Source of the DNA: a virus
Length of the DNA stretch: 64,000 bases
Direction: 5' to 3' (one strand)
IMG/VR virus record: IMGVR_UViG_3300025108_000020
Span: 48,307 to 112,306 of that record
Positions 18,876-27,575 of the stretch are shown here, piece after piece (position 1 is the stretch's first letter; each line of letters opens with the position of its first letter). Under the pieces are notes generated by a model. The model ran no database searches, was not told where the DNA came from, and saw only the letters and a program-made list of their open reading frames with translations. A program made the translations under genes and the position numbers.

Positions 18876-21013
18876 TACACACCCTCACTAGATGGAATTG
18901 AACGAACACAATCGATTGCAGAAATAATTCCGACTTGACCAGTTCCTGTTGGAATTTTTCCAAATCCTGCTTTAAGAATTGCTCCAGATCCAGTTTCACT
19001 TAAAATTCTGAATTCTGGTAAGGTTTCATCAAATCTTAAAATATTTAGAACCTTAACTTCAAGTATACCACCATTATCATCAGTAACAATATCATAAATT
19101 GGTGATGGAGTTCCAATTCCAATAGGAGTATCTTTACCATCTTCAAAAGTATACTCTGGTCCCTCAGGAAGATTGATGAATACTAGTCCATCATCAGATA
19201 CACCAGGAATTGTAACTCGGTCTCTTCCTGGTACATATCCAGATCCAGGATTGGTAACAATAACCCTAGTGATTCCATCATTATTTGGATTATCTTCAGT
19301 TGGTCTTTCTGGATATGACTCTCCAGTTGTAAGCATGACAATTTCAATAACTTGATCATTATTTTCTCCACCAAGAATGGCTTGTCCTACTGCACCATAT
19401 CCAAGATTACATTTATCTCTGAAGTTGACAATAGGCGGGAATCGATATCCAGACCCAGTATTCTTCATCTTAGCACCAATAATACTACCAGTTCTTTGAA
19501 CACCAGCAAGAACTCCACCGAGTCCGGCATTTTCTACAAAATATCCCATAACAACTTCCGCAGCTGCACCAACACCACCACCGCCAAAGATTTCGACATA
19601 AGGTCCAGTACAGTTTCTAGGAGGACCACCATAACATCCACCAGGAATAACACTGTTAGCAGCAGTTTCGCCTAGTAATTCACCGTCACCAAAGATATCC
19701 CATTTACCCCATTTTCGTTCAAAATCATTAGTAAGATTTGCTGCACCTTTAGAAATTTTCAGCGCATCCATTACATATTCAAAAGGATCCTCTCCCTTTT
19801 CCTTACTAGTACCGCCAACGACATATTCTTTATCTTGCGGACACTTGCCTTTATTTGATTGATTACAATCAAGGAATGATGCAACAGTATTGAGATTACT
19901 AGCTGCACTGGATAAGAAATCTGCAATTTGGAATCCAGGAGCAATAATTTTAGCAACACCTTCAAGAGGACCTACCATCAAATCTGCAATTTGATCAATT
20001 ATTGCACCAACAAATGCACCAGTAAACTGTGCTCCCTGACATCCAGCATATTCCCTTCCACTATTAATCATATCCATCAAAAGATCTTCAATAGTGCCAG
20101 ACAGAGCTTCTACAGCTTTATTTGCAACACAACCAATTGCTTCTTGTAAGAATTTTGATGGACCAAGCATTGCTGTCTGTGCAGCAACACCAGCAAGGTG
20201 TGCAATGGTAGCAGATCCAGTTGATGCTAATACTTTAGAAAAAACCGCTGCATATAAAGCCTTCAATCCAGTTTGACCTAATGTTTCTAGTTTATCAAAT
20301 AACTTTTCAATCATTGTACCAACAAATCTGTTGGCCTGAACTTCAATAATATCTGCTGCTAACCTAACTTCATTAGCAAGATTAGTGCCAGCAAGTGTGA
20401 GATTTTCTACTTTACTTGCTAAGTTCTCAACAACATTTGCCATCTCACTAATAGGATTAGTTTGGCAAGTATCAGCAGTTAATACTTTAGTCCCATTACC
20501 AGCATTATCTGGTTTTTTTGTTTTTGTTGAAGTATTAGGTGTTGGTTGAGTTGCTTTGTTTTGTTCGTTAGTTTCATCCTTTGGAACTCTGGCACTTTCA
20601 GGTGTATTAGAGCCATATGAACCATATGGTGCGAAAGGTGATTTATACTCTCCACTTTCTACAAAAGATGTTCTAGGAAAAGTTCCTAAAATCAAGGGTT
20701 GTTGTCCTTCCTCATCCAGAAAGAATCCAAAAACAACATCTCCCTGTTGAACTAGGGTTGATTGTGCATAATTTGCCCCACCTGCACCAGAAGTTGTTGG
20801 GAGAGCAAGTATAGCATAAGGTAGATTTTTATTATCAATATCTTCGTTATATGGGTGACAACCCATGATACGAACTTTGCACCTGTTACCCCACCCTTCA
20901 CCCTTTACAAGCTGTTCTTCCTGTGCATCATCAGGAGCAACTTGTCCGATAAAGGCTCTAAGTGTACCTAGTCCAAAATAACTAGTAAGTGGGAAATCAG
21001 GAATTTTTGACAT
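18875..21013 (-). CDS. gp5: Baseplate hub protein, gp5-like without lysozyme domain
   Basis: The 712-residue protein has an N-terminal OB-fold region like gp5N (about 40-115: NRCKVRIMGCHP, LPYAILALP, VQQGDVVFGFFLDEEGQQPLILGTF). A long Ala-rich helical middle follows, then a C-terminal region with GSGY-type repeats (GSGYRFPPIVNFRD, GSGYVPGRDRV). No T4-lysozyme-type domain is visible. Cell-wall cleavage probably falls to the M23 protein two genes upstream. It starts 1 base from the CP12-like gene. Confidence 0.75.
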   Translation of the reverse strand: MSKIPDFPLTSYFGLGTLRAFIGQVAPDDAQEEQLVKGEGWGNRCKVRIMGCHPYNEDIDNKNLPYAILALPTTSGAGGANYAQSTLVQQGDVVFGFFLDEEGQQPLILGTFPRTSFVESGEYKSPFAPYGSYGSNTPESARVPKDETNEQNKATQPTPNTSTKTKKPDNAGNGTKVLTADTCQTNPISEMANVVENLASKVENLTLAGTNLANEVRLAADIIEVQANRFVGTMIEKLFDKLETLGQTGLKALYAAVFSKVLASTGSATIAHLAGVAAQTAMLGPSKFLQEAIGCVANKAVEALSGTIEDLLMDMINSGREYAGCQGAQFTGAFVGAIIDQIADLMVGPLEGVAKIIAPGFQIADFLSSAASNLNTVASFLDCNQSNKGKCPQDKEYVVGGTSKEKGEDPFEYVMDALKISKGAANLTNDFERKWGKWDIFGDGELLGETAANSVIPGGCYGGPPRNCTGPYVEIFGGGGVGAAAEVVMGYFVENAGLGGVLAGVQRTGSIIGAKMKNTGSGYRFPPIVNFRDKCNLGYGAVGQAILGGENNDQVIEIVMLTTGESYPERPTEDNPNNDGITRVIVTNPGSGYVPGRDRVTIPGVSDDGLVFINLPEGPEYTFEDGKDTPIGIGTPSPIYDIVTDDNGGILEVKVLNILRFDETLPEFRILSETGSGAILKAGFGKIPTGTGQVGIISAIDCVRSIPSSEGV

Positions 21014-21240
21014 TAGTCTTCATATACTCTACATTCATCTGCTTCAGGTTCCATCTCACAATAGAGTTCTAATGCTGTGGGATCATGATGATCACCTGCT
21101 TCAATATCTTTTTCGTGATTTTTAGCATAAAATTCTAATTCTTGAAGTTCTCCTTCAATATGACGCCGCTGTTGTGGAGATGTGGATGAATCATCCAAAA
21201 TCTCTTTATCTTTTTGGATGTGAGCTTCGATACTTTCCAT
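21013..21240 (-). CDS. cp12: CP12-like small protein
   Basis: The 75-residue protein is helical and charged at the N-terminus. It ends DPTALELYCEMEPEADEC plus RVYED, which closely matches the GAPDH-binding C-terminus of CP12, including the cysteine pair eight residues apart (C61, C70). CP12 turns off the Calvin cycle by bridging GAPDH and phosphoribulokinase. The N-terminal cysteine pair and the central AWD-VEEL motif of full CP12 are missing. It sits between two baseplate hub genes, tightly packed on both sides, which is odd for a metabolic regulator. A structural protein that merely resembles CP12 remains possible. Confidence 0.65.
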   Translation of the reverse strand: MESIEAHIQKDKEILDDSSTSPQQRRHIEGELQELEFYAKNHEKDIEAGDHHDPTALELYCEMEPEADECRVYED

Positions 21241-22560
21241 TTAACTTTTTGTTTTAATTCCGTGTGAGTCTCTTACTACCCTCATAGAGGTGTATGATTT
21301 TGTGGGAAGAAACTTATGAGTAATTTCCCTAATAATATATAGACCACTTATTTTACGGTCTATTTCAGGAGTTTCCCTGAAATCGTTAACTTTAGGAAAT
21401 TCTAGATATACTGGATCTCCAGCACATAAATTTGTATTAACTGGAACTAAAATATTGAGATCTATGTTAGTGAAAGAACTATATCTAGCTGCTGATTGTG
21501 CCTGATCCTGATATGGATTGTAATTGAACTCTGTGGAGACACCAACATCTAGAGTACCAACATTAGCCACTCCAGAAAGAACTCTAGGAGCCCATTGTGT
21601 TGCATTAATATTTTCTGGATCTGCAACAGCAGCTGGTTTTTCTACTTCTCCTAGTAGATTTTTAAAATCAGGTGTAAATAATGACTCGTTTGGTTGAGTG
21701 AAAGAAAAATCTAGTGGATTAAAGAAAATTCGATACGATGATTTCTCTCCTTCATTAAGAGACCTACGAAGATCAGCACTTTTATTTACTTGGACAGTTA
21801 AAATAGTTGTAGCACTTTCTCCCTGATTTTCATATGGGTTACTCATCGTCTCCCTATAATAATATTTTTGTGCAGACTTTTCACTCTCCTTAGCAAATTT
21901 TATTAATCCATCAATTGATTTAAAAACAAATCCTCGTTTTGTTTGCCAAAAGAAAAATCCTGCAGATTTACTTTTAGCTCCAACTGGAACTGCATGTTTT
22001 GATAATAACACAGCCCATGTTAATGGGTGTTTCATATTACCGGTAAATGGAAATGCGTTCTCAGTTTTTTCTAAGTCAACAGGTTGTAAAGGTTCCAAAA
22101 GACCTATAATCTGTTCAATAGTTTTATCGATGGTTGGATCAGTATACTTACGGGAAATTCTAGTTTGCTCATTTGTAATACCTTCTCTTGATACTAAATG
22201 TAGTATAAAATGCTCTGATCTTTTGTCAGTAGCATAACTTAGTATTTTATCAACATACATTACATAATCAAAAGGTTCAGATTTTCCTGCAAAGTTATCG
22301 AATGGGGTTTTAATTTGGAAGTGGATTCTTTCTCCACCACGAATTGGTAATCCATTAAAGACTCCTTGAAGATCACCATCCGGTCCTTTGACAGTATTTC
22401 CAGTATTAGCAACTTCAATTATTGCCGTTGTTATTGGCGAATATAAGTTTTCAAAATATTGAAAATCAATAACACCACCAATAATAGATACGGTCTTTTT
22501 TCCGTCTTTTGAGGTAATATTAAATTTTGTATAAACTGATGGTCCAGTTAAAGCAGACAT
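21241..22560 (-). CDS. Putative baseplate hub protein (gp27-like)
   Basis: The 439-residue protein has an N-terminal hub/VgrG-like beta pattern (SVYTKFNITSKDGKK, VIDFQYFENLYSPITTAIIEV, GLPIRGGERIHFQIKTPF). The C-terminal part has LNILVPVNTNLCAGDPVYLEFP and SGLYIIREITHKF, the usual 'define-the-state, return-to-baseplate' pattern of hub proteins. Its place beside gp5 and its length close to T4 gp27 support this assignment, but sequence similarity alone would not prove it. Confidence 0.55.
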   Translation of the reverse strand: MSALTGPSVYTKFNITSKDGKKTVSIIGGVIDFQYFENLYSPITTAIIEVANTGNTVKGPDGDLQGVFNGLPIRGGERIHFQIKTPFDNFAGKSEPFDYVMYVDKILSYATDKRSEHFILHLVSREGITNEQTRISRKYTDPTIDKTIEQIIGLLEPLQPVDLEKTENAFPFTGNMKHPLTWAVLLSKHAVPVGAKSKSAGFFFWQTKRGFVFKSIDGLIKFAKESEKSAQKYYYRETMSNPYENQGESATTILTVQVNKSADLRRSLNEGEKSSYRIFFNPLDFSFTQPNESLFTPDFKNLLGEVEKPAAVADPENINATQWAPRVLSGVANVGTLDVGVSTEFNYNPYQDQAQSAARYSSFTNIDLNILVPVNTNLCAGDPVYLEFPKVNDFRETPEIDRKISGLYIIREITHKFLPTKSYTSMRVVRDSHGIKTKS

Positions 22561-24125
22561 TATGAATACCTATACTTTAGATCTTTCATAATATCAATAT
22601 AATCTCCACCACCTGACTCGTATACATTACTGCCCATGTTTTGATTATCTTCAGATTCGCTATTTACAGATGATGATCCACCCTTAATATTTAGAGATGC
22701 AACTGAGAATGGAACCATTATTGGTTCTGATTGCACAGTTTCATAAGATGGCATTACTGATGGTATTTTTTGCATACCATCTAAAGATGAGACAAGCCTC
22801 TTAGGAGGAGCAACAACTTCTCCAGTAAAGGGGGCAGTGCCAGGGAATCCATATTCCATGGGATTAATTGCATTCTTTCTAGGATATCCAGTAATACCTT
22901 CTGCTTTACCAAGTTCCCAATGCAAGTGTGGTCCACTAGATCTTCCAGTTGATCCTACTCTACCAATAATATCGCCTGGTTTTACTTTATCATTCTTCTG
23001 ATATGGAGACTGTTCCAACATGTGTCCATAAAAATGCTCCAGTCCATTTGCATCCACGAACACAACATAGTTACCATAGCTCTTTTCAAACCCCTTATCA
23101 GTGATAGTAGAATCTGAGGGAACCGTGAGCGCAGAACCAGACTCCGCAGGAATATCTAATCCCATATGACCTCGCCCAGCACCAATACCATCTCCTAGAG
23201 CATATCCAGGAGGTTTTTTCCCAGTATCTTGAAATATTAATCCAGATGTTTGTGGTTGTACTCCAGGAGAAGGTTGTTGACGAGTTGTTGGTGCCTGTCT
23301 TGTCTCAGCAGGAGGTGAAGGAGGAAGAGTAGTTGGAGGCTGCATAATAGTCTCTACTTGCTGATTGTACTCTTGTTGAGTAATTTCTCCCCTATCTAGT
23401 TTTTCCTTAGCTTCTGCAATTTGAGACTGTTGATTAACACTTCGTCCAGTAGGTATTGCCGGTGTTGTTGGCATAGGATCTAATCCTAGTTTTTGTCTAG
23501 CATCAGCAATTTCTCTTTCACTCTGTGATTTTAAATCCTCAAAATCTCTAATAGTATCATTAAATGTTTTGTCAACATCTAGTTGAAGTTGTGAGAAATC
23601 TTTAGTTAACTCTTCAAACTCTCGTGTAACTTCCCGTTCACTTGTAAATATTTTTCCAGATATTAAATCTCTGCTTAGTGCAGCAGCCGTATCCTTAAGA
23701 CTTTGTAAGACATTTCCAATGCTACTGACGACTGTAACAATATTATCATACAAATTAGTAACGAACTGAGTTACATCCTCAACAATTACAATAATTTTTG
23801 GGAGATTTGCTAATAACCAATCAAGAAGAATCCAACCAGCTGCTTTCAGTAACCCAGAAAATATACTCTTAGATCCTTTGATGGCAGAAGAAATTCCACC
23901 TTTAATAAAATTCTGAGGTTTTTTTGCCTCTACAATTTTCTCTGCATCTTTTGTTCTTGCAGTATCAACTTCTAATCTGTCAAGACTTAACTTAGTCGTT
24001 TCTCTTTGTTTATCTTTTCTAATCTCCTTACCTAAAGACTTCCTAAGACCTTGAGTGGTCTGCCTAATAGAAAGCAGACCTACATCAACAATATTTAATG
24101 CCTCATTAGTAGGAATTAATTTCAT
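22560..24125 (-). CDS. Tail protein with M23 (LytM) peptidase domain
   Basis: In this 521-residue protein, residues about 310-410 form an M23 zinc endopeptidase domain. H320-xxx-D324 (RGHMGLDIP) and H400-x-H402 (GPHLHWELG) are the metal ligands, with H368 in FYGHM. The N-terminal half has a hydrophobic stretch (about 88-115) and coiled-coil helices (165-210), followed by a Pro-rich linker. Such enzymes cut peptide cross-links of peptidoglycan. The location in the hub cluster suggests it opens the wall during injection, in place of the gp5 lysozyme. Confidence 0.85.
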   Translation of the reverse strand: MKLIPTNEALNIVDVGLLSIRQTTQGLRKSLGKEIRKDKQRETTKLSLDRLEVDTARTKDAEKIVEAKKPQNFIKGGISSAIKGSKSIFSGLLKAAGWILLDWLLANLPKIIVIVEDVTQFVTNLYDNIVTVVSSIGNVLQSLKDTAAALSRDLISGKIFTSEREVTREFEELTKDFSQLQLDVDKTFNDTIRDFEDLKSQSEREIADARQKLGLDPMPTTPAIPTGRSVNQQSQIAEAKEKLDRGEITQQEYNQQVETIMQPPTTLPPSPPAETRQAPTTRQQPSPGVQPQTSGLIFQDTGKKPPGYALGDGIGAGRGHMGLDIPAESGSALTVPSDSTITDKGFEKSYGNYVVFVDANGLEHFYGHMLEQSPYQKNDKVKPGDIIGRVGSTGRSSGPHLHWELGKAEGITGYPRKNAINPMEYGFPGTAPFTGEVVAPPKRLVSSLDGMQKIPSVMPSYETVQSEPIMVPFSVASLNIKGGSSSVNSESEDNQNMGSNVYESGGGDYIDIMKDLKYRYS

Positions 24126-25795
24126 TATCCGTATGTTATTTTAGTAAAACCAAGATGATCATTAAGAGGATCAGATGTAACTATAGAAGGATATGCTGTG
24201 GCAGTTGGTGTCGATGGATTTAGTTCTTCTCCCTCAGAACCACGATCATCGATTGGCATAACAACAACATTAGGTACAGATGTTATCTGCCCCTCTACAT
24301 TAAATGGAGCCCTACTAACTGGCTCAAGTGTATAAGGTGTATTATTTAATGGTATAACTTGCGGTTTTGTTATATTTGTTGGTTGATTCGATTGTGGCAT
24401 CTGTTGCACAGGAGGAGCAACAGTAGATGCAGGAGGAGCACTACTAGTAGGTGGAGAAGGTGGTGTATATCTACCTAAAGACATATCCAACATCTGTTTA
24501 ATAGCGTCCAGTCCCTTTAATCTTTCAGGATCTGGGGGTCCCTGTCTAAGAGCTCCAGTATTTCTAAACATATCATGATCTACTCGCGATATTCTTGCAT
24601 CAAGATAAGATCTCGCATCATTATCCAAACCATTTCGCAGATTTTGGATATACTTCATACTTTTCGTCATTCTTGAATGAAGATCATCCACATTATCTTC
24701 TAAAGCATCATACTTTAACTTATCTTCCGCAGATAATTCTCCATATAACTTACCACCACGAAGCATCATATCAAGTTTTCTCTGTCCTATTTCATGTTCC
24801 TTTTGATAACCTGACAATGTGCCAAGAGCAGCAGAAACATTGTTCATAACCTTCTTCTCTGCATCAGAGAGAGATTCTGCAGTATACTTGTCAAATTCTC
24901 CGTCTTCAATTGACTTTATATTTTGCTCAATTTCATTAAGTTCCGATCCTACATTAGAGAAAGTTCTAGCAATTATGTTATTCTCCAATCCAGGATTTTT
25001 TTCTAGTAACTTTTCTCTCCTTCTTCGGTACTCTTCAAGAGCTGCGTCTTTACCTTTATCCGAAACTTTATCAATAACTCCCTGAGTGTACTCCTCATAA
25101 CTACCACGACCAGTACCATCTGGACCAGATCTATCAAGAATATCGTAAAGTTTCATCCCAAGTCCTGCCGCCACGGCACCTAGCAGTAGATATGGGTTTG
25201 ACAATAATCCCAAAATCTTTGGAATATTTAACAGCATTGATGTAAGAACACCACTAATTACCCCAGTGATTGCACCAATACCACCATTCAAAGCAAGTGC
25301 AATACCACCAGCAATTGCTAATCCTTTGATAATATCATTCTTTATCTTTTCAAAAGCATCATTATCACCTTCTGACCATGCTTCTAAAGCATCTAATCCT
25401 TTTATTCCTAACCACCCTAAAAACAATGTCTCAAGGGCTTTCATAAATCCACCAAAAGGACCCATTGCTTTTTTCTTTAAAGCCTGAATTGGTTTAACTA
25501 AACCAGCCTTAATAGAAGACTCAATAAAATTTTCTTTTGTACCTTTTTTAAGACTATCTGCAGATTCTCTCTTTTGCTTTATCTCTCTCTTATCTTCCTG
25601 AGCATCTTGAGCGTTTCTACCACCAATTAAATCTGCAATTGCACCCAAATTTCTTTGGATTGCGAAAATATTTTTATTTAATGAATTATATTGCTTGACA
25701 GTCAGATTCCCTTCAGGAACTCCAGGATTATCTACCCTACCTTCTGGAGTTCCTTCTTTTCCTGGTGGAAGTAATTTAGTGGGATCAATAACCAT
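24125..25795 (-). CDS. Putative tail tape-measure/hub protein
   Basis: The 556-residue protein has charged helices at the N-terminus (DKREIKQKRESADSLKK). A hydrophobic Gly/Ala-rich core follows (about 160-215: IIKGLAIAGGIALALNGG, ITGVISGVLTSMLL, LLLGAVAAGLGMKLY), then long helices and a Pro-rich C-terminus. This layout is common in tape-measure and hub proteins that pass through membranes. It follows the gp26 frameshift region with an 11-base overlap, as tape-measure genes follow tail chaperones in lambda-like phages. A gp29-like role is possible but not proven. Confidence 0.5.
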   Translation of the reverse strand: MVIDPTKLLPPGKEGTPEGRVDNPGVPEGNLTVKQYNSLNKNIFAIQRNLGAIADLIGGRNAQDAQEDKREIKQKRESADSLKKGTKENFIESSIKAGLVKPIQALKKKAMGPFGGFMKALETLFLGWLGIKGLDALEAWSEGDNDAFEKIKNDIIKGLAIAGGIALALNGGIGAITGVISGVLTSMLLNIPKILGLLSNPYLLLGAVAAGLGMKLYDILDRSGPDGTGRGSYEEYTQGVIDKVSDKGKDAALEEYRRRREKLLEKNPGLENNIIARTFSNVGSELNEIEQNIKSIEDGEFDKYTAESLSDAEKKVMNNVSAALGTLSGYQKEHEIGQRKLDMMLRGGKLYGELSAEDKLKYDALEDNVDDLHSRMTKSMKYIQNLRNGLDNDARSYLDARISRVDHDMFRNTGALRQGPPDPERLKGLDAIKQMLDMSLGRYTPPSPPTSSAPPASTVAPPVQQMPQSNQPTNITKPQVIPLNNTPYTLEPVSRAPFNVEGQITSVPNVVVMPIDDRGSEGEELNPSTPTATAYPSIVTSDPLNDHLGFTKITYG

Positions 25796-25964
25796 TAGAT
25801 TGCTGTGCCTTTAAATTTTGTTCCTCAATAAATGATTCTAACAAACTAAGGTAAATGTCCCTTTCCCAAGGGATCATATTTTCAATATCACTCAAGGAGT
25901 ATTTATGATGCTGCATGAGGGCAAAGTTTATCTTGTAATAAGCAACGATATCCTCATGCAACAT
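25785..25964 (-). CDS. gp51-like tail chaperone extension, likely made by -1 frameshift from gp26
   Basis: The 59-codon frame runs from ATG at 25964 (MLHEDIVAYYKINFALMQHH, then KYSLSDIENMIPWERDIY) to TGA at 25785. The sequence around HHKYSLSDIENMIPWERDIY is typical of the short tail-chaperone/baseplate assembly proteins of this group. The frame joins gp26 in the -1 register: slipping on T TTT TTC at 25973-25979 continues as Q-L-A-M-L-H. The fused product would have about 298 residues. It may also be translated alone from the ATG, which lies inside the frameshift stem. Confidence 0.75.
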   Translation of the reverse strand: MLHEDIVAYYKINFALMQHHKYSLSDIENMIPWERDIYLSLLESFIEEQNLKAQQSNGY

Positions 25965-25979
25965 CGCTAGCTGAAAAAA
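25907..25979 (-). promoter_or_regulatory. -1 programmed ribosomal frameshift signal
   Basis: The heptamer T TTT TTC (25973-25979) sits in the gp26 frame just before its stop. A 7-base spacer (25966-25972) is followed by a stem of 14 base pairs with one G-U: 25952-25965 pairs with 25907-25920 across a 31-base loop. The spacing and stem fit known -1 signals. The downstream -1 frame is open for 59 more codons after Q-L-A. Confidence 0.8.
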
Positions 25980-26680
25980 GAGGCTAATCCCTCAAGTACA
26001 ATCTCATTCTCTACACCAGTTTCAGGATTTTCAAACTTAACCGTATGAGAAAGTTTTGGCATTGTATTAAAGAAAGTTTCAATCTCTTTGAATTGAGAAG
26101 AACTTAACTGATCAACAAACTCAAGCCACTCTTTCTTAGAAGAGTCTTTAGATTCCCAAGTTTCTTCATCAGAGTAAATCATCTCAATACATGATGCAAT
26201 AACATCAAATGATTTTTGAAGATCAACTCCATCACCAAAGTTTTGAGAGATAAACTCACTAAGTGATGGATACTTCAACCTAAGAGTCAATACATCATCA
26301 AGTTTAACATCACGCTTGTGATCTGGATCATCAATAACTTTAATTTCATCGATAAAGACTGTCAGAGGTACTTTAGTTTTACCATCGTCTTGACATGTCA
26401 CAAGAACATCAATAGATTCTCCTACAGACTTACCCCGAACATTGAGGAAAAGATATTCAATATCAAATGTAGCAAGTTCCTCTACCTTTACTCCACGGGT
26501 GATAATACATGCACTAAGAACATCTTTAATTGCTCTTGCAATCTGTTCAATTTCTTCACTCTCCATAGCTAGAACAAGAACTTTTTCTTCTTTAACTAGA
26601 AATGGACGATACTTGATTTTTTTCTTTGTGGACGGAATAACCAACTCAAATGTCGGAGTTGCAATTTTTGGTAAAGACAT
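25967..26680 (-). CDS. gp26: Baseplate hub/tail assembly protein gp26
   Basis: The 237-residue protein starts MSLPKIATPTFELVIPSTKK. It shows the pattern of the T4 gp26/gp51 baseplate-hub assembly family (RPFLVKEEKVLVLAMES, VLSACIITRGVKVEELATFDIEY, LRLKYPS). These proteins act in hub assembly, similar in position to lambda gpG. The last codons TCT TTT TTC AGC TAG contain a slippery run, so a fraction of ribosomes should continue into the -1 frame and make a longer form. Confidence 0.8.
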   Translation of the reverse strand: MSLPKIATPTFELVIPSTKKKIKYRPFLVKEEKVLVLAMESEEIEQIARAIKDVLSACIITRGVKVEELATFDIEYLFLNVRGKSVGESIDVLVTCQDDGKTKVPLTVFIDEIKVIDDPDHKRDVKLDDVLTLRLKYPSLSEFISQNFGDGVDLQKSFDVIASCIEMIYSDEETWESKDSSKKEWLEFVDQLSSSQFKEIETFFNTMPKLSHTVKFENPETGVENEIVLEGLASFFS

Positions 26681-26698: not shown

Positions 26699-26706
26699 TT
26701 ATTTAG
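26699..26706 (-). promoter_or_regulatory. T4-late-like promoter before gp26
   Basis: CTAAATAA on the minus strand lies 19 bases before the gp26 start and overlaps the stop of the gene upstream. Confidence 0.5.
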
Positions 26707-27575
26707 ATGGGTACACCTGTGGCAGAATCACGAGGTACAAAGTCACTGCCTGGTCCATAGGTGTTCCCAAAATTGCTGTTGGTGCCATTTCCACCATTTT
26801 CAAATTGTGGAAAAGTCCACTGTTCTTGGCGTGGAGGTGGGTTGTTAGTCGCAGGTGGGATGGGCCCTGTTTTTTCAATTGTTTGTCCATCCCCTCGTGG
26901 CCTTGAACTATACTCTCTGTTTCCAGATGCAGGTTGGTCACTCTTGGTAGTCCTCTCTAAACTTCTAATACTGCCAAGAACATAACGATCATATGCGAAT
27001 GTAACAGAAATTTCTAATACTCGATTATTAGCATAATCTACTGCACTAGGAACGATATTAACAGGAAATGCATTAATAAAGGTATACTCAAGTTTTTGAA
27101 AATGATCTTTATCAAATTTAGTCAGACCCATTTGACTACACTTATATGTGTCTGGGTATAGCATCCTATTATAAAATGCCTTTTTATCTTGACTCACTTC
27201 GCCACCACTTGCAATAAATTCTTGCCATAATTGGAAAAATTTCATTACTTTATATCCTTTATCCACAATAAATGTGAATGTAGTATCAGTAAAAATTCTT
27301 GTATGAGCATACTTCTGGACAACGCCCATGTAGTTGCCCTTTATTTGTGCAGTAGCAAAAGTAGCACCAGGAAGTTCTGCACCCTTACACAAAAGATTCA
27401 GTTCTCTAGTTAGAAAATATGTTGATAATAATGGTTCTCTTTTTTGAACAAAATCTATTAAAGAACCAGGAAAAGCCAGGAGTTGAAACTCAAAATGATT
27501 AGTTGTCGCAACATTTGTGAACAACGATCTAATATCTTCAGTAGCTCTCTTCCTGGGGTAATTTCTTCGTGGCAC
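26703..27575 (-). CDS. gp54: Baseplate tail-tube initiator (gp54-like)
   Basis: The 290-residue protein starts with GTG at 27575. The core (about 25-205) has a tail-tube-like pattern: FEFQLLAFPG, LCKGAELPGATFATAQIKG, YAHTRIFTDTTFTFIVD, KFFQLWQEF, ISVTFAYDRYVLG. The C-terminal 85 residues are Pro/Asn/Gly-rich and disordered-looking. T4 gp54 starts tube growth on the baseplate and shares the tube fold. The gene faces gp4-48-53, which fits. A tail-tube variant is the alternative. Confidence 0.65.
   Translation of the reverse strand: MPRRNYPRKRATEDIRSLFTNVATTNHFEFQLLAFPGSLIDFVQKREPLLSTYFLTRELNLLCKGAELPGATFATAQIKGNYMGVVQKYAHTRIFTDTTFTFIVDKGYKVMKFFQLWQEFIASGGEVSQDKKAFYNRMLYPDTYKCSQMGLTKFDKDHFQKLEYTFINAFPVNIVPSAVDYANNRVLEISVTFAYDRYVLGSIRSLERTTKSDQPASGNREYSSRPRGDGQTIEKTGPIPPATNNPPPRQEQWTFPQFENGGNGTNSNFGNTYGPGSDFVPRDSATGVPI

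Follow-up and report, generated by a model that had tools for sequence, protein, structure and literature searches.

The end of gene 26 in this T4-like phage raises the question of how a short gp51-like frame, which lies in the -1 register relative to gene 26, comes to be translated. It should be noted that the tail-assembly frameshift is conserved in long-tailed phages (Xu, Hendrix and Duda 2004, as cited in PMC5009743), and that G/GT frameshifting, which gives a G:GT product ratio of about 30:1 in lambda, has been described as widely conserved "except T4" (Atkins 2016, PMC5009743). The first-pass annotation of the window (the whole 64,000-nt stretch of DNA analysed here) had proposed a lambda G/GT-like -1 frameshift that joins gp26 to the gp51-like frame. 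Comparison of homologous loci strongly supports this proposal, through a conserved heptamer and a selected, start-less -1 frame, and it is very probable that ribosomes undergo programmed -1 frameshifting where gene 26 ends, which yields both gp26 and a gp26-gp51 fusion. The larger result, as judged from sequence comparison, is that the frameshift signal is common to most sampled T4-like lineages, and that T4 gp51 is the in-frame equivalent.

The minus-strand gp26 ORF of the window (26680-25967, 237 aa) has the 3' end GAG GGA TTA GCC TCT TTT TTC AGC TAG, in which the heptamer is in the correct phase for a -1 slip (xxT TTT TTC). The individual elements of the proposed signal were recovered in full: the heptamer T TTT TTC (25979-25973) is exact to the base, the spacer between heptamer and stem is 7 nt (25972-25966), and the arms of the 14-bp stem, with one G-U pair and a 31-nt loop, pair exactly at the positions proposed. 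The 90-nt fold at the site has an MFE of -26.3 kcal/mol (z = -3.4), with 1 of 200 shuffles equally good. The -1 frame, which had been described as Q-L-A plus 59 codons, is open; it reads Q-L-A and then M-L-H-E-D..., for 62 codons up to the stop at 25787-25785, so that the ATG lies three codons into the extension. The predicted trans-frame product (gp26 plus extension) has 298 aa and the predicted fusion junction ...EGLASFF-QLAMLHEDIVAYYK. The 59-aa gp51-like ORF matches phrog_634 (E=3.5e-26) and also the gp26 family phrog_150, at the C-terminal positions 239-278 of 282.

Table 1. Features of the gene 26 locus in the window, with the evidence for each.
Feature	Position	Strand	Evidence
Upstream gene, tail-tube-like (gp54-type) protein	26703..27575	-	Phage_TTP_2 E=1.6e-17; phrog_45 tail tube E=2e-40
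gp26 ORF, short product, 237 aa, zero frame, stop TAG 25969-25967	25967..26680	-	PF12322 E=4e-68; phrog_150 E=5e-76
SD-like GAGG, candidate dnaX-like stimulator, ends 10 nt before heptamer	25990..25993	-	position; 4-mer statistics in relatives
Slippery heptamer T TTT TTC; zero-frame P-site TTT, A-site TTC	25973..25979	-	sequence; in-phase conservation
14-bp stem, 5' arm, 7 nt past heptamer	25952..25965	-	fold z=-3.4; pairing in 10 close relatives
14-bp stem, 3' arm	25907..25920	-	fold; pairing in close relatives
-1 extension, 62 aa (QLAMLHEDIV...SNGY) + stop	25785..25973	-	colinear with T4 gp51 C-terminus; phrog_634, phrog_150
gp51-like ORF from own ATG (conventional call), 59 aa	25785..25964	-	ORF list; ATG not conserved in family
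Next gene, 556 aa, candidate tape measure by position	24125..25795	-	position

Clustering of the gp26 genes at 90% identity gave a non-redundant set of 149, and clustering at 70% identity gave 63 clusters. In all 80 viral contigs retrieved with the window gp26, T TTT TTC stands ten bases before the stop, preceded by a variable codon. When contigs, further scans and isolates are taken together, T TTT TTN is found in phase near the gene end in 279 of 284 gp26-like loci, in 279/279 loci outside the Tevenvirinae-type phages and Ackermannviridae, and in 149/149 of the non-redundant set; because gp26 sequences share ancestry, these counts are not independent trials. The five loci without the heptamer are three from Tevenvirinae-type phages or Biquartavirus, two of which had been matched inside gene 51, and two from Ackermannviridae-like Vibrio phages. 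The carriers include Kyanoviridae, Pelagibacter and Methylophilales phages, KVP40-type and Aeh1/65-type Straboviridae, Menderavirus, Otagovirus, Pootjesviridae and Oliverocinquevirus; the heptamer is also present in Aeh1, phage 65, S13, VmeM-32, Ahp1 and HTVC008M.

The codon before the heptamer is only GAT, AAT, AGT, TCT or GCT in the 149 non-redundant loci, i.e., it always ends in T, and the exchange of the preceding amino acid while this T stays is the cleanest sign of site conservation. Codon usage, given the amino acids, predicts xxT TTT in 74 of the 149 loci (31 of 63 at 70% clustering), compared to the 149 of 149 observed. Among 144 other Phe-Phe pairs in these genes, 6 have T TTT, and of the 34,491 codon positions elsewhere in the 149 genes, 22 hold the in-phase motif T TTT TT. 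A chance origin of the heptamer is ruled out by these codon-usage and position statistics.

Two variant arrangements were observed at the gene end. In some Pelagibacter-type phages (L083, L196 and relatives), 31 nt separate the start of the heptamer from the zero-frame stop, and the short product gains a tail of about eight residues that overlaps the extension. In the Ackermannviridae-like loci L090, L092, L303 and L304, a -1 ORF follows gp26 (gp51-like in YC and PhaxI) and there is no T TTT TTN heptamer; since an early start codon of the -1 ORF is also absent in PhaxI and phiA8-29, another slip site (perhaps nnT TTC) or another route may be in use. The retention of a -1 ORF in these relatives without the heptamer counts against the frameshift reading.

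A G/GT-type pair calls for an open, selected downstream frame to which the shift alone gives access. The starts counted were ATG, GTG and TTG (rare ones such as ATA and ATT were left out), and none of them occurs within the first nine -1 codons past the heptamer in 78 of the 149 non-redundant loci. We calculated a dN/dS-like ratio for codons 2-8 in 62 of these 78 loci, namely those whose zero-frame stop is found 7 or 10 nt after the heptamer begins. The ratio was 0.27 for the -1 frame, compared to 1.7 (zero frame) and 3.5 (+1 frame); the start-less -1 codons of the 62 loci evolve under purifying selection. This pattern indicates translation of the -1 frame by a route other than initiation at a start codon. 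In the records of S-RSM4, Mosig and Melnitz-2, the gp51 start has been put at a later ATG, within the conserved domain, and the records of Aeh1, Cronobacter phage S13 and Vibrio phage VmeM-32 (L298, L300 and L301) carry no annotation for the -1 gp51 extension. We located the -1 ORF of Aeh1, which matches phrog_634 (E=3e-14) and has no nearby start codon. The gp26-like gene of Vibrio phage TCU-VP03-AIR1 (L098), which carries the slippery site, is labelled deoxynucleotide monophosphate kinase, an apparent misannotation.

The first-pass annotation had looked to homologues for both a kept heptamer and a kept stem. The former was found in every locus outside the Tevenvirinae-type phages and Ackermannviridae, as described above; the 14-bp stem is confined to the window clade, and a single stem kept family-wide is ruled out, as helix registers vary by clade. 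The mean fold z over 101 clusters nevertheless reaches its minimum of -1.84 directly 3' of the heptamer; the window at -20, which overlaps this one, has -1.66, and the other windows range from +0.1 to -0.8. Several hairpin registers occur nearby in other clades, with the 5' arm beginning a few bases past the heptamer. For the window-clade stem in ten close relatives, 95.7% of cells are paired versus 24-54% when the stem is slid; there are five two-sided changes, at two pairs, and because nine of the 14 stem pairs are invariant, covariation support for this stem is only moderate.

Upstream of the heptamer, an SD-like 4-mer was found at a distance of 7-12 nt in 48 of 63 clusters (0-12 in control windows), and in most loci the distance is about 8-11 nt. 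The Glu codon at the SD-like position is GAG by 48:11, although GAG accounts for 30% overall. The heptamer of E. coli dnaX is A-AAA-AAG, and its frameshift product ends early. The gp26 site shares with dnaX the three-part layout, i.e., an SD-like element about 10 nt upstream, the heptamer, and a hairpin a few nt downstream; the difference is that the dnaX product is terminated early, whereas the gp26 product is extended. Judging from its position, the SD-like GAGG upstream of the heptamer probably helps frameshifting in gene 26.

The relation to T4 was analysed at the protein level. The trans-frame product and T4 gp51 (249 aa, single frame) can be aligned from one end to the other, and the short product aligns with T4 gp26. 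When the 298-aa trans-frame protein was used for a search, T4-type gp51 was matched continuously over residues 76-282, across the junction. In profile comparisons, the trans-frame protein matched gp51 with E=6e-24 over 242 columns and gp26 with E=7e-29 over 204 columns, the latter match stopping at the junction. The -1 extension alone matched gp51, at its C-terminus (E=3.6e-9), and gave no match to the gp26 profile. The gp51 and gp26 profiles matched each other with E=2e-19 (the gp26 sequence L295 was left out), PF12322 is matched by both T4 proteins, and T4 gp51 matches phrog_150 over 13-280. In the tree of the gp26 domain, the gene 26 set and the gene 51 set form one clade each, with long branches that do not place the duplication. 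T4 differs from the frameshifting phages in gene arrangement, with two adjacent, divergently transcribed genes and no slippery heptamer in the T4-type genes 26 and 51 examined, and is similar to them in the products, gp26 being homologous over its full length to the zero-frame product and gp51 to the trans-frame product including the junction. T4 gp51 seems to be the long product of the frameshift in one frame and T4 gp26 the short one, and T4 appears to encode the two as paralogous genes, an equivalence that the first-pass annotation had missed.

The heptamer would be incidental if the 59-aa gp51 were translated independently, through reinitiation, or coupled initiation, at a start codon of its own. 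In the window, an ATG lies directly past the TAG (TAGCGATG), TGATG or TAATG stop-start overlaps are present in several phages (Moby, RHph_I46 and D481), and every two-gene annotation examined treats gp51 as separate. We consider this explanation very unlikely, given the 78 loci that lack a common start in the conserved first nine codons, the purifying selection on the -1 frame in the 62 testable start-less loci, the invariance of the heptamer where the start codon varies, and T4 gp51, which holds both parts in one chain; because the window ATG is three codons into the extension, independent or coupled initiation is possible in that particular phage. The same two proteins could also arise from a mixed mRNA pool, if the polymerase rather than the ribosome slipped on the six-T run. 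T runs of six to eight are short for polymerase slippage, and the run at the site is exactly six in 128 of the 149 loci and never longer than eight. The conserved codon phase, the SD-like element and the nearby downstream hairpin fit a ribosome, which makes transcriptional slippage extremely improbable.

A different kind of doubt concerns the products: the frameshift could be real, and the proteins could be structural or catalytic parts of the hub, with a role unrelated to that of lambda G/GT. The family names ("baseplate hub", "hub assembly catalyst") and older genetics that placed gp26 in the hub (PMC3004832) are consistent with this reading, as is the lack of significant fold matches to solved chaperones. 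The AlphaFold models of gp26 and T4-type gp51 are confident (pLDDT 88). A Foldseek search of the PDB with the gp26 model gave, as the highest-probability matches, both chains of the HK97 gp13 tail chaperone 2ob9 (0.75 and 0.63; TM 0.45-0.50 by target length), but with E about 1 and 10-11% identity, and gp26 is twice as long as the HK97 protein; the lower matches included the small proteins 3klu and 3fgx. Since E-values are about 1 or worse, the HK97 match is only a hint. The T4-type gp51 model had no meaningful match in the PDB, and its named top matches among viral models were gp26 and gp51 relatives; an NCBIfam search gave nothing useful. Against hub parts stand the T4 tail review, which counts gp26 and gp51 among the chaperones of hub assembly and reports gp51 as missing from the finished particle (PMC3004832), the gene order (tail tube-like gene, gp26/gp51, large ORF), which resembles the chaperone position, and the HK97 chaperone as the highest-probability fold match. 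On balance, the hub-part reading is unlikely, and from the T4 annotation, gene order and mechanism we infer a chaperone role for gp26 and the fusion.

A G/GT-type pair lies between the genes for the tail tube and the tape measure, and its products do not enter the virion. The first-pass annotation had also named the next gene (24125-25795) as the tape measure, a suggestion that found no support: the 556-aa ORF has no family matches in Pfam/PHROG-type searches, and the profile comparison to T4 gp29 yielded no usable match (E=0.014, 40 columns, probability 3%). The 521-aa minus-strand ORF at 22560-24125 contains Peptidase_M23, and its N-terminal ~100 residues are weakly similar to the 556-aa ORF (i-E 2e-4); a hub or tape-measure domain may have been duplicated between them. 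Further along the late tail block, a gene for CP12 (PF02672, E=5e-12), a Calvin-cycle regulator, lies between two tail genes (21013-21240, minus strand).

The signal, its conservation, the selection on the -1 frame and the colinearity with T4 gp51 are read directly from the sequences, and we infer the slippage itself. Most ribosomes would read TCT TTT TTC AGC TAG and produce gp26, the short, G-like product. A minority would be held by the 3' stem, probably aided by the upstream SD-like GAGG, and the P- and A-site tRNAs would slip back by one base on T-TTT-TTC; these ribosomes would then read the 62-codon -1 frame to give the 298-aa gp26-gp51 fusion, the long, GT-like product. Both products are probably chaperones of tail/baseplate-hub assembly. 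This mechanism is similar to that of lambda gpG/gpGT in the -1 slip, which in both cases takes place late in the upstream ORF of two paired tail genes, and in the production of a short and a C-terminally extended protein from one gene, the gp26 extension ORF often being without a start codon. It is different in that slippage would take place on T-TTT-TTN, accompanied by an SD-like element and hairpins, and gp26 belongs to PF12322, with no match to any other tail-chaperone Pfam family here.

The comparison also bears on two puzzles in the literature. Cyanophage gp51 was reported to have ~20% of the usual length, with ~200 N-terminal residues absent, and gp51 was reported missing only in Aeh1 (Sullivan 2010, PMC3037559). 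Since T4 gp51 aligns with the whole trans-frame product, the truncated cyanophage gp51 and the missing gp51 of Aeh1 are, on this alignment, frameshift extensions: the absent N-terminal part of the former is gp26, and the latter lies in the -1 register and has no start codon close by.

We found no earlier report of the gp26 frameshift in open-licence PubMed Central papers, although one elsewhere is possible; within that literature, a tail-chaperone frameshift was unreported for T4-like phages, including the very abundant marine cyanophages. One conserved signal resolves the T4 "exception" together with the short cyanophage gp51 and the Aeh1 gp51, and in the public records examined, one protein of a core tail gene is mis-annotated or absent. 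The spread of the signal across several families and within Straboviridae itself suggests, by parsimony, that the frameshift came first. It is fairly likely that, in the T4 superfamily, it is the ancestral source of the gp26/gp51 pair, that T4 lost it via duplication, and that gp51 is GT-like, bridging the tape measure and the tube; Tevenvirinae-type phages would then have swapped the frameshift for two paralogous genes. If this reading is true, the short product stayed with gene 26, and gene 51 came to encode the long product, fused in frame. T4 gp51 is an essential assembly protein of unknown function (PMC3004832), for which the conserved frameshift suggests a concrete, testable role, and the GT-like bridging role, if true, would account for it.
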